DNA of 34,646 bases from a virus, in IMG/VR virus record IMGVR_UViG_3300006108_000004, positions 1-34,646 of that record. The stretch is one strand, 5' to 3'. Of this stretch, positions 1,230-34,646 are shown one piece after another. Within the stretch, counting starts at the first letter, position 1. Each line of letters begins with the position of its first letter. The translations under genes were made by a program, and so were the position numbers. The notes beneath the pieces were generated by a model. That model worked only from the letters and a program-made list of their open reading frames with translations, did no database searches and was not told the DNA's origin.

Positions 1230-1951
1230 GAATAGTTTGTTGGTTTTCCTGTGGAGCAGCTTCAGCCGTAGCAACCAAACTTGCAATTGCTGAAAATTCA
1301 GGCAAATTACCATTAATTATTGCTTACACCGAAGTCAAGGAAGAACACCCAGACAATAAAAGATTTCTGGCAGACTGTGAAAATTGGTTTGGGCAGAAAA
1401 TACAAATCCTTAGAAACGACTTTTATGATGGTTCAATCTACCGTGTGTTTGAAAAAAACTACATTCGGACACCCAAGGGAGCGCCTTGTACCCGAGCGCT
1501 AAAGAAACAAGTCAGAGAGCGTTTTGAGCTACCAAATGATCGTCAAGTGTTTGGATATACGGCAGAGGAAGAAAACCGTTTAAATCGCTTTATAGACGCA
1601 AATAACGATGTGGATATATGGACACCTTTAATTGACAAAGGATTGTCTAAAGAAGACTGTTTAGCCATGCTTAAAAATGCCAATATTGAGTTACCAGCCA
1701 TGTATAAACTTGGGTATCACAATAATAATTGCATTGGTTGCGTCAAAGGCGGAATGGGATATTGGAACAAAATTAAAATAGATTTCCCTGAACACTTTGA
1801 TCGGATGGCTAAGTTGGAACGGTTTAAGACACAGACTATTTTTAAAGATAGATATTTAGACGAGTTAAAACCTACGGACGGGAATTACCCTCAAGAACAA
1901 AATATTGAGTGTTCTATCTTTTGTCAAATGGCTGAGGAGGAATACAAATGA
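1226..1951 (+). CDS. Phosphoadenosine phosphosulfate (PAPS) reductase family protein
   Basis: 241 aa of the adenine nucleotide alpha-hydrolase/PAPS reductase superfamily. The N-terminus VCWFSCGAASAVA carries the PP-loop (SCGAAS, residues 8-13), a common variant of SGGxDS that binds the nucleotide phosphates. Conserved-looking cysteines follow at 88 (PCTRALK), 169 and 172 (CIGC), and 229 and 233 (CSIFC). These could hold a metal or Fe-S cluster or do thiol chemistry. Family members reduce PAPS in sulfate assimilation, but phage homologues are usually of unknown role and some relatives act in DNA phosphorothioation (DndC). It sits in an early operon between a small gene and a nuclease-like gene, with ATGA overlaps on both sides. 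Host-sulfur metabolism and nucleic-acid modification are both possible. Confidence 0.85.
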   Translation: MRIVCWFSCGAASAVATKLAIAENSGKLPLIIAYTEVKEEHPDNKRFLADCENWFGQKIQILRNDFYDGSIYRVFEKNYIRTPKGAPCTRALKKQVRERFELPNDRQVFGYTAEEENRLNRFIDANNDVDIWTPLIDKGLSKEDCLAMLKNANIELPAMYKLGYHNNNCIGCVKGGMGYWNKIKIDFPEHFDRMAKLERFKTQTIFKDRYLDELKPTDGNYPQEQNIECSIFCQMAEEEYK

Positions 1952-29016: not shown

Positions 29017-29174
29017 TTCTTTGCGGTCTTAGCAGACTCTTTAAATGCTTTTGCGGTCGGAGCACCCTTAGAACCTGGCTTTCTCATCTTTTCAACAGGC
29101 TTACCTTCTGCCTTTTCTTTGGCAATCCGTTCCTGTTTGGCATGAATATTAGCGTATAAACCGTTTTTAGGCAT
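29013..29174 (-). CDS. Small basic protein, 53 aa
   Basis: The start at ATG 29174 is chosen over an upstream in-frame codon at 29198 because GGAGG precedes it at good spacing. MPKNGLYANIHAKQERIAKE then EKMRKPGSKGAPTAKAFKES is a recurrent small phage protein. It is rich in Lys and probably nucleic-acid binding or virion-associated. It overlaps the GroES-like gene. Confidence 0.7.
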   Translation of the reverse strand: MPKNGLYANIHAKQERIAKEKAEGKPVEKMRKPGSKGAPTAKAFKESAKTAKK

Positions 29175-29448
29175 CTTGTTCCTCCACAAAACAGACATCT
29201 TGCCAAGACATAACGAGGAATTTCTCGTCCCCGTCCTTAAAATTGTGATATTTCAAATATTCGTCTTTATAGTCCTTGGCTAAAGTACCAAACCAGACTT
29301 TATCCCCGACTTTTAAACCCTCCTCAGCAGCCTCGTCCCCAACTGCGGTTACATAACCACAAGTATCCACCTCAGCCGTCTGAATGTAAAGGACTGATTG
29401 AATTCTAGGTACGGGTTTGACTATTATTTTGTCTTTTATGGGTTTCAT
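29167..29448 (-). CDS. GroES-like co-chaperonin, 93 aa
   Basis: MKPIKDKIIVKPVPRIQSVL, then CGYVTAVGDEAAEEGLKVGD and KVWFG match the GroES/Cpn10 fold with its N-terminal strand and G-V-x-A-V-G / VGDKV motifs. The usual mobile loop that contacts GroEL is short (IQTAEVDTCG). Phage GroES proteins replace the host cap for capsid protein folding, as gp31 does in T4. GGGAGA precedes ATG 29448. It could assist coat folding; not shown. Confidence 0.75.
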   Translation of the reverse strand: MKPIKDKIIVKPVPRIQSVLYIQTAEVDTCGYVTAVGDEAAEEGLKVGDKVWFGTLAKDYKDEYLKYHNFKDGDEKFLVMSWQDVCFVEEQDA

Positions 29449-33349: not shown

Positions 33350-33540
33350 ATTACCCCCAAGAAAATACAGCCAAACACAATAACGGCCAAAAGTACGCAA
33401 ATCACAATTACTAATTTATCTTCTTTGTCCATGTCAGTCTCGAAGGTTGGCTCAGGAGCTTCTGGGAAAGCCTCTGATAAAGTTCTAGGGAATTTTTTAG
33501 TGGTAGGGTTAATATTGCCCTTAATAAATTTAATTGTCAT
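33346..33540 (-). CDS. Small C-terminal-anchored membrane protein, 64 aa
   Basis: Start at ATG 33540 chosen because AAGGAG is six bases upstream; another ATG two codons earlier lies against it. It has the FPRTLSEAFPEAPEPTF motif seen in small phage proteins, then a C-terminal TM helix (LVIVICVLLAVIVFGCIFLG). An ATGA overlap joins it to the annealing-protein gene. Confidence 0.7.
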   Translation of the reverse strand: MTIKFIKGNINPTTKKFPRTLSEAFPEAPEPTFETDMDKEDKLVIVICVLLAVIVFGCIFLGVI

Positions 33541-33682
33541 TGTCATCTCCTTCGCAGTTCTCGCATCCGGGATGATCTGGGTCTTGACAGTTGGGGTATG
33601 CGTTTAATGCGCTATATCTGCGCTTTGCATAAAATATTTGTGCAGACATTTCTGCTATATCGTCATTTTCAAAGTAGTTCAT
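33530..33682 (-). CDS. Small Cys-rich acidic protein, 50 aa
   Basis: MNYFENDDIAEMSAQIFYAK, then NCQDPDHPGCENCEGDDNDN, with a C..(D/H)..C..C cluster that could bind metal. AAGGAAC precedes ATG 33682. It overlaps the start of the next gene by 11 bases. No family known to me. Confidence 0.65.
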   Translation of the reverse strand: MNYFENDDIAEMSAQIFYAKRRYSALNAYPNCQDPDHPGCENCEGDDNDN

Positions 33683-33688
33683 AATTTG

Positions 33689-33713
33689 TTCCTTAATTTA
33701 TCTAAATTCGTCT
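33689..33713. repeat. 25-bp leader repeat, copy A
   Basis: ttccttaatttatctaaatt-cgtct, 23/25 identical to 33946-33970. On the minus strand it reads AGAC-AATTTAGATAAATTAAG-GAA, just before the 33682 gene, and includes that gene's ribosome site. Confidence 0.8.
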
Positions 33714-33940
33714 TAATAAGAAATACCAACTTTAGCCATTTCTTTGCTAGATACGCCCATTTCAGACAATCTATATCCTACTGTGGCTTGAAATACTGTA
33801 CACATATTTGCCCAAAACTCTGCGGAATTATCATTAATGTGGTCACAGTTTTCTGCATCAACGCTCATATCTACTAAATGAGATCCATAAGCATCTTCTA
33901 CTAATTTTGTCATTGCTTTATATTTTTCATAATTTGTCAT
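33713..33940 (-). CDS. Hypothetical protein, first gene of leftward operon, 75 aa
   Basis: AAAGGAAAC precedes ATG 33940. The product (NYEKYKAMTKLVEDAYGSHL, then FWANMCTVFQATVGYRLSEM) is acidic and helical. As the first gene after the leftward promoter it is probably very early; function unknown. A 25-base leader copy lies both before and after it. Confidence 0.65.
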   Translation of the reverse strand: MTNYEKYKAMTKLVEDAYGSHLVDMSVDAENCDHINDNSAEFWANMCTVFQATVGYRLSEMGVSSKEMAKVGISY

Positions 33941-34088: not shown

Positions 34089-34262
34089 ATGGATATATTT
34101 AAAGCAATCGAATTAGCTGGTTCTCAGTCTAAATTAGCCCGTATTCTAGATACTTCTAGAGCTGTAGTTCATTCTTGGACTAAGCGGGGAATACCGAAAA
34201 TGAGGATTTGGCAATTAAAAATGGTTAAACCTGAGTGGTTTGATGAAAAACCTCGTTTTTAG
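34089..34262 (+). CDS. Cro/YdaS-like repressor, 57 aa
   Basis: MDIFKAIELAGSQSKLARIL, then DTSRAVVHSWTKRGIPKMRI and KPEWF. This is the small Cro/YdaS pattern: A...aGSQSKLArIL.TSR.AV..W...GIP..R...L...(K/R)PEWF, a helix-turn-helix at about residues 11-31. It binds operator DNA in the switch region. There is no Shine-Dalgarno site, and the ATG lies at a predicted transcription start. No second (CI-type) repressor or integrase was found, so whether it controls lysogeny is open. Confidence 0.85.
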   Translation: MDIFKAIELAGSQSKLARILDTSRAVVHSWTKRGIPKMRIWQLKMVKPEWFDEKPRF

Positions 34263-34303
34263 GGTATATAATTCAAACCGTCTAGAGTGGCATCTAGGCG
34301 AAA

Positions 34304-34434
34304 GAACTGGTAAAGAACCCCGCAGAGTCCTGTGTGGTCTTGTCGTACAGCATGACGAGTCTTTTGACCAGTTCAATCGTCTTGTTGTTGCTCTCGCCAA
34401 GAGCCAAGACCACAGAGCATTTTGCGGGGTTTTT
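34304..34434 (+). ncRNA. Long structured RNA ending in a terminator
   Basis: Outer stem CCCCGCA (34318-34324) with TGCGGGG (34423-34429), then TTTTT. Inside are an 8x8 internal loop and a perfect 10-bp stem TGTGGTCTTG (34333-34342) with CAAGACCACA (34405-34414). Apical hairpins: GCTCT-cgcca-AGAGC (34390-34404) and CTTGTCGT-acagc-ATGACGAG. GAACTGG (34304-34310) can also pair with CCAGTTC (34368-34374), which would be a pseudoknot or an alternative fold. It may be a terminator with antiterminator, or a stable small RNA. Confidence 0.6.
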
Positions 34435-34475
34435 GCTTTTGGAGACCGTACTCCACACGAAAGCAGAGCGTTTGC

Positions 34476-34646
34476 ATGGACGGCTTGGAAGTAAACACCG
34501 CACACCTACACACCCGGGTGCAAAACGTGACCGAACTTGGTTTAGGTATCGGTAAAGCAATTGGTAGCTCAGGTGGAAAACTAGGCCAGTTGTATAAGCG
34601 AATAAACCCGTCAAGCGCACTTGGGCTTTTTGTGTATTTAAGATAA
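34476..34646 (+). CDS. Possible 56-aa protein across the circular join
   Basis: ATG 34476 starts MDGLEVNTAHLHTRVQNVTE, and the frame ends at TAA 34644-34646, which is also 118-120 of the left copy. The ribosome site is weak (GCAGAGCG), and the terminator at 81-105 falls inside the 3' coding end. The Gly-rich C-terminal part (LGLGIGKAIGSSGGKLGQLY) is protein-like but matches nothing I know. It might be an untranslated leader instead. Confidence 0.3.
   Translation: MDGLEVNTAHLHTRVQNVTELGLGIGKAIGSSGGKLGQLYKRINPSSALGLFVYLR
34511..34520. other. 10-bp perfect palindrome
   Basis: CACCCGGGTG, a perfect inverted repeat seven bases before the right copy of the terminal repeat. Possible protein-binding site or small hairpin; no further support. 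Confidence 0.35.
34527..34646. repeat. Terminal direct repeat, right copy
   Basis: Identical to 1-120. See the left copy for interpretation. Confidence 0.95.

Follow-up and report, generated by a model that had tools for sequence, protein, structure and literature searches.

What kind of element occupies the stretch between the Cro-like repressor gene and the rightward operon of the window, by which we mean the whole viral sequence of 34,646 nucleotides analyzed here? The initial annotation had described positions 34304-34434 as a long structured RNA with alternative pairings and had considered, among other readings, a terminator/antiterminator switch and a put-like antitermination element. 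Our analysis identifies 34304-34434, with near certainty, as the 5′ domain, pseudoknot included, of a single non-coding, folded RNA whose structure is conserved and covarying. From its sequence features, this RNA is predicted to be ∼430 nt long, starting at ∼34279, passing over the circular junction of the genome and ending at ∼188.

The record represents a circular or terminally redundant genome with 34,526 unique bases. Its ends are identical over 120 bases (1-120 = 34527-34646), so that the sequence runs on from 34646 into position 121, and it is this genome form that splits the RNA across both ends of the record. The RNA lies in the early region, 3′ of the Cro-like gene and adjoining the gene for a replication-initiator-like protein. 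The former (34089-34262, + strand, 57 aa) is found directly 5′ of the RNA and outside it, and its product matches phrog_8008 (6.5e-8) and Pfam YdaS (YdaS_toxin, 2.3e-8, above cut-off), with P22_Cro (9e-5) below the Pfam cut-off. The initiator-like gene (423-776, + strand, 117 aa), likewise outside the RNA, encodes a product matching phrog_9474 (1.2e-12) over profile positions 178-254 of 288. No tRNA was found in the window. Elsewhere in it we observed a PAPS-reductase-like protein (1226-1951; phrog_424) with a further match, to the PADLOC defence model for SspD (3e-15), and a weak GroES co-chaperonin-like match (29167-29448; phrog_3188, 1.1e-6).

The 5′ domain and its predicted promoter

The predicted transcript opens with H1, a hairpin of 8 bp with the loop GUGGCA (34279-34300, + strand), in which four of five counted pairs show two-sided changes and 93.5% of cells are paired. 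Upstream of H1 is a candidate promoter (34243-34272, + strand) composed of the −35-like box ATGAAA (34243-34248), an 18-nt spacer, and TATAAT (34267-34272). The −35 box is weak in the window, and −35 boxes are uneven among type-A loci. For the −10 box, 110 of the 118 agree with TATAAT in at least five of the six bases, as opposed to 14 of 118 in the control, and in 117 the box ends 12 to 14 nt before the first hairpin loop. Since this spacing is fixed, the transcript is expected to start at the first hairpin, that is, at ∼34279 in the window. We infer that the RNA has its own sigma-70-type promoter.

H1 is followed by T1, a long terminator-like hairpin that ends in TTTTT and at which termination is predicted (34316-34434, + strand). 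The outer stem joins 34316-34326 with 34421-34431 and consists of CCCCGC (34318-34323) paired with GCGGGG (34424-34429) plus flanking A-U pairs, while the ten-pair inner stem joins 34333-34342 with 34405-34414. Above it are a branch that pairs 34347-34358 with 34377-34388 and an apical hairpin that pairs 34390-34394 with 34400-34404. The TTTTT occupies 34430-34434, 3′ of the stem, and 116 of 118 type-A relatives likewise have at least four T in a row at this place. All stems of the hairpin are located as the initial annotation had claimed, and its predicted minimum free energy of −62.1 kcal/mol compares with a shuffle mean of −33.6 (z = −8.25), none of 200 shuffles being as stable. The remark that such a length is more than a plain terminator needs was also correct, the extra length arising because the hairpin is only the front part of a longer RNA. 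H1, the promoter, and the entire second domain 3′ of 34434 go beyond what had been annotated.

A further helix crosses T1. The strand GAACTGGT (34304-34311, + strand) pairs over 8 bp with ACCAGTTC (34367-34374, + strand) in the apical loop, forming pseudoknot 1. In an alignment-free comparison of 94 distinct relatives, drawn from 157 parsed occurrences with unparsed ones excluded, 84 had uninterrupted complementarity over 8 bp or more, as opposed to 3.5% of 5000 mismatched pairs, and 66 distinct 5′ strands were found among the relatives. This complementarity marks the crossing pairing GAACTGG/CCAGTTC as a genuine pseudoknot, one of the two meanings proposed for it. The other, a switch between terminator and antiterminator, had to be abandoned: the crossing helix 34304-34311/34367-34374 shares no base with the stem 34316-34326/34421-34431, so both can coexist in one molecule.

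A pattern built from the conserved apical part of the 5′ domain retrieved at least 120 stretches, with 109 unique among the matches listed. When 52 of the 5′ domains were aligned, 98.4% of the cells in stems paired compared with 93.6% in shuffles, and two-sided changes were present in 15 of 33 pairs, a further 14 of the 33 being invariant and hence uninformative. Type B is a different 5′ domain with a different pseudoknot, in which the loop of the first hairpin pairs inside the long hairpin. Here, a helix of at least 7 bp was found in 53 of 55 loci versus 8.8% of mismatched pairs, with seven more loci unparsed.

The class I 3′ domain and its covariation

Using a DNA pattern from the region of the 3′ domain, we found at least 119 viral stretches, which gave 91 unique loci among the matches listed, window included. 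The conserved 3′ domain of these loci, termed class I, spans 34446-34626 (+ strand) in the window and contains helices P1-P6 and pseudoknot 2. On the + strand, P1 pairs 34452-34455 with 34486-34489, P2 pairs 34469-34473 with 34478-34482, P3 pairs 34503-34506 with 34517-34520, P4 pairs 34530-34536 with 34546-34553, P5 pairs 34557-34565 with 34585-34593, and P6 pairs 34609-34610 with 34616-34617. In pseudoknot 2, the strand GGUUUA in the P4 loop (34539-34544, + strand) pairs with UAAACC (34603-34608, + strand); 100% of cells are paired and five of the six pairs show two-sided changes. A seventh helix, P7, extends over the circular junction, with GGC at 34624-34626 (+ strand) pairing with 149-151, and its pair 34626-34675 (numbered along the joined circle) is formed in 80 of 82 relatives. 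Its 3′ strand belongs to a third conserved segment (149-188, + strand), which continues with a hairpin before UAUCCACCCU and ends near AACCUAUG. This segment is conserved in 82 of the 91 class I loci, i.e., in those readable through.

In these 82 loci, the strongest covarying column pairs form P1-P7; the effective number of sequences is ∼32 for the 82, so that counts overstate independent events. A separate alignment of 47 of the 91 loci, from which near-duplicates and truncated loci had been removed, showed pairing in 94.9% of 1816 cells compared with 73.0% in shuffles, two-sided changes in 29 of 39 pairs, and a covariation score that 0 of 500 shuffles reached. Sliding the partners by one to three columns lowered pairing to 24 to 39%. 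Further pair types in the 3′ domain showed no excess over shuffles (93 of 500 reach the value). Pairing was lower in P1 (85.3%), owing to the L019 subgroup, which is apparently misaligned there, and in a two-pair helix, 34567-34568/34573-34574, only 45.7% of cells were paired. With RNAalifold, 85 loci yielded only part of a fold, and pair counting was used instead. Covariation across related phages, which had been named as the check on the structured RNA, is present in both domains, and the helices are supported by it.

An open frame of 56 aa (34476-34646) overlies much of this domain in the window, and in the phage MW202484 a CDS, UOF77725.1, is annotated over the same DNA. Both would suit an explanation in which T1 simply terminates cro and what follows is either some unconnected element or a gene for a small protein. 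As a query, however, the frame matched 23 IMG/VR loci in which the DNA is conserved but the frame has stops and frameshifts in many, and it has no match in PHROGs. Because it is broken in relatives, the frame does not represent a protein gene. The explanation is contradicted further by covariation that extends to either side of T1 and by a promoter placed at fixed spacing between cro and T1, and we give it very little credence. In MW202484, the annotated CDS (33533-33892) overlies a class I RNA (L076) and is probably no gene.

Inverted repeats are frequent at replication origins, and a DNA element, whether a cruciform or a set of protein-binding inverted repeats, might therefore be considered in place of an RNA. 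Against this, G-U cells outnumber A-C cells by 208 to 6 in the 3′ domain alignment and by 125 to 18 in that of the 5′ domain, which identifies the + strand as the RNA strand. Conserved G-U pairs on one strand, interlocked pseudoknots, and a promoter at fixed distance all argue against a DNA element, which we consider highly improbable. That the element is a conserved, folded, non-coding RNA we hold with high confidence.

Classes of 3′ RNA and their occurrence

Among the matches listed, 109 unique loci share the 5′ domain of the window; by motif, they were assigned to class II (66), class I (18), and class III (9), with 13 others and 3 too short. Upon reading, the 13 others proved to be four of class II, six of class I, one class I hybrid (L239), and two of a fourth class (L271, L282). 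In a selected set of 15 loci, the covariance model for class I found L076, L214, L229, L262, and L327, found L239 weakly, and gave no match in L217, L219, L237, L241, L271, L282, L378, L380, or L400. The class III 3′ RNA, which carries GACACAGGUAGACCGC...GCCGCCGUAACUGUGUU, is highly conserved and was found in L233, L235, L237, L241, L250, L255, L263, L306, and L320. As judged by these assignments, a single 5′ domain is combined with no fewer than four different 3′ RNAs (class I and at least three others), and class I 3′ domains occur behind at least two 5′ types.

Individual loci depart from these types. The L239 RNA (1542-1712, minus strand) combines a class I start (P1, P2) with a different middle, its weak model match scoring 53 bits. 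The fourth 3′ RNA type, behind the window's 5′ domain in L271 and L282 only, has GGGGGCAGUUCCCGAA...UGGUCGAAUCAUCA in common, and class III variants led by a type B 5′ domain occur in L378 and L400. A leader shared by L378, L381, and L400, of the form ...CCGAAAAGCG(A/C)ACCUCCCGCCUGCCG...UUUUUU..GGAGG, lies just 5′ of the initiator-like gene, with a similar one in L282; CCUCC in the leader of the former three could mask the ribosome site GGAGG.

Classes II and III contain a direct repeat. A variable segment that follows GGCUCC recurs in the same sense after CACCA, just 5′ of the first gene; the repeat is mostly 7 to 9 nt long, and the second copy lies mostly 71 to 82 nt on. At least 7 nt are common in 57 of 63 rows, which include three apparent chance matches (L186, L197, L262), versus 9% of mismatched pairs. 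The repeat differs between phages and is matched within each, as for instance in L213, L219, L224, L242, and L378, and there are at least 21 different cores among those listed. A third strand complementary to the repeat was not enriched (10 of 59 for the own RNA versus 166 of 1180 for others). The variable direct repeat was not found in class I, to which the window belongs. In classes II and III, such a repeat could allow annealing of the RNA to template DNA at the RNA's own 3′ end.

Among named phages, class I occurs in MW202484 only, and Blast with one class II and one class III RNA gave no match to named phages. On bacterial genome contigs, a first pattern gave no match and a second gave three, two of which (L325, L326) were read as chance. 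The third, L327, was read as a true RNA of class I. Its contig is short, phage-like, and part of a Comamonadaceae MAG, which is also the only one of 299 sampled Comamonadaceae genomes that was positive with the covariance model under stricter filters. These searches place the RNA with phages rather than with common prophage elements, and its carriers probably include phages of freshwater Comamonadaceae. The window genome has one RNA match. Across 18 long phage records, the class I model gave a single match in 11, while G000 and G005 add a partial match at the record end, with the end repeat checked for G000 only. The window RNA had no match in Rfam 15 at the gathering score or at E up to 10, nor was there an Rfam match in five relatives of other classes tested, L237 and L241 included. 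A literature search, with subscription papers mostly outside it, returned no title or abstract describing this RNA.

Genomic linkage, possible roles, and known systems

A search with the initiator-like protein found 519 relatives, and the best 80 were kept. The RNA lies within 4 kb in 69 of these best 80 of 519 loci (66 by motif, 3 by reading), and the initiator-like product is 115 to 134 aa in the 34 neighbours listed. The window protein appears to match only the C-terminal part of longer initiators, an N-terminal loss judged from profile coverage only. The 18 long records, which are author-chosen long records holding the initiator-like protein plus MW202484, all contain such an RNA: the covariance model identified class I in 13, a motif identified class II in 3, and reading identified class III in 2. 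Neither a DnaB-type helicase nor a family A polymerase was found in any of the 18.

On these grounds, we tentatively favor a role for the RNA at the start of phage DNA replication. The role is suggested by its presence in all long records and near most of the initiator-like genes kept, by the short initiator-like protein in phages that lack both replication enzymes, by a 3′ domain that is swapped while the 5′ domain stays, as with replicon types, and by the direct repeat through which the RNA of sister classes could anneal to DNA. Some of the transcripts would be released at T1, giving a short RNA of ∼156 nt, and the remainder would read through T1 to give the two-domain RNA, which may work as a folded origin transcript or primer precursor. 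In doing so, it would supply the origin-marking part apparently lacking in the phage protein, leaving the remaining steps to the helicase and polymerase of the host. A bolder version, which we think unlikely as it stands, makes the RNA itself the replication origin: a shared 5′ pseudoknot domain and one of several interchangeable folded 3′ domains would mark the DNA start site, in classes II and III partly through a copy of the DNA that adjoins the RNA's own 3′ end, and hand over to a protein without its own DNA-binding half. If so, the RNA type would define the replicon type.

Several observations count against a replication role. The GC-skew minimum of MW202484 (31136) coincides with the gene-divergence point and not with the RNA at 33673, 2.5 kb off, and that of the window (33958) is likewise at a divergence point, beside the RNA; in both genomes, GC skew as an origin marker is confounded by gene direction. 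The minimum of cumulative A-T skew in the window (34439) falls inside the RNA. Class I is without the direct repeat. The RNA of L358 and L360 is found behind Cro, with the initiator-like gene ∼4.4 kb away on the opposite strand. Gene neighborhood in a small phage genome is, moreover, weak evidence of function.

The placement between a repressor-like gene and a rightward operon, true of the window, fails in some relatives, and this bears on whether the RNA acts in cis, as a leader through which RNA polymerase is modified or the operon regulated (by processive antitermination, in a put-like manner, or by attenuation at T1). Such a leader would suit the window, where the RNA is between Cro and the early operon much as putR lies ∼270 nt 3′ of the PR start (PMC9378689), and the T-run of T1 in nearly all type-A relatives fits it as well. 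In two genomes, however, there is no operon 3′ of the RNA (L404/L405), only a 35-aa ORF and convergent genes, as seen in L360 and, as far as read, L358. This arrangement argues against a leader for that operon and for an autonomous RNA. The window genome holds a single copy, pseudoknot 1 and T1 have no base in common, and the elaborate 3′ domain, being 3′ of T1, cannot act on T1 in cis. We therefore rate a cis-acting leader as improbable.

An autonomous RNA could be a trans-acting folded molecule (a machine, cage, decoy, or agent of host takeover) made early in infection and similar in kind to GOLLD or ROOL, a reading that we judge nearly as likely as the replication role. It would be a free molecule whose place near replication genes only sets its timing. 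Its own promoter, its size and two pseudoknots, its survival as a unit with only the 35-aa ORF behind it in L404 and L405, and module swapping, as in an arms race, are all consistent with this; a free RNA would not need the linkage to the initiator-like gene, however, and the direct repeats of classes II and III suggest local action. Few large RNAs have several conserved pseudoknots, and those that do usually have demanding roles, such as catalysis, assembly, or replication control. Abundant in freshwater phages, without a match in Rfam, and built of recombining modules, this RNA offers domain swaps already performed in nature. Should it prove to mark replication origins, it would represent a new way for a phage to begin genome copying; should it be a free RNA machine, a new one would be opened to structural work.

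Among known systems, the put RNAs of HK022 resemble it in being phage early-region RNAs 3′ of an early promoter with more than one stem domain; as described in PMC9378689, they are ∼70 nt long, have two stem-loops, occur in two copies, one per early promoter, and act on RNA polymerase in cis. The RNA described here, in contrast, is ∼430 nt long with many helices and two pseudoknots, has one copy in the window genome, and has no operon behind it in two genomes, so the put-like element initially suggested does not fit. Like GOLLD and ROOL, it is a large, phage-borne RNA with multiple pseudoknots. Unlike them, the window RNA and the five other-class relatives match no Rfam family model, the RNA lies near an initiator-like gene and not in a tRNA island, and its 3′ part is exchanged; it is also shorter than GOLLD, ∼430 nt where many GOLLD RNAs exceed 800. 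ARRPOF RNA is a large structured RNA linked to plasmid replication, but is a different element in a different host, and did not match in the Rfam searches. ColE1 RNAII is a structured pre-primer of several hundred nt that is driven by a promoter and lies beside an origin, and a primer of this kind is cleaved and then extended by DNA polymerase at the origin. By description, the RNA resembles RNAII in being promoter-driven, structured, and several hundred nt long, here in a phage and not a plasmid.
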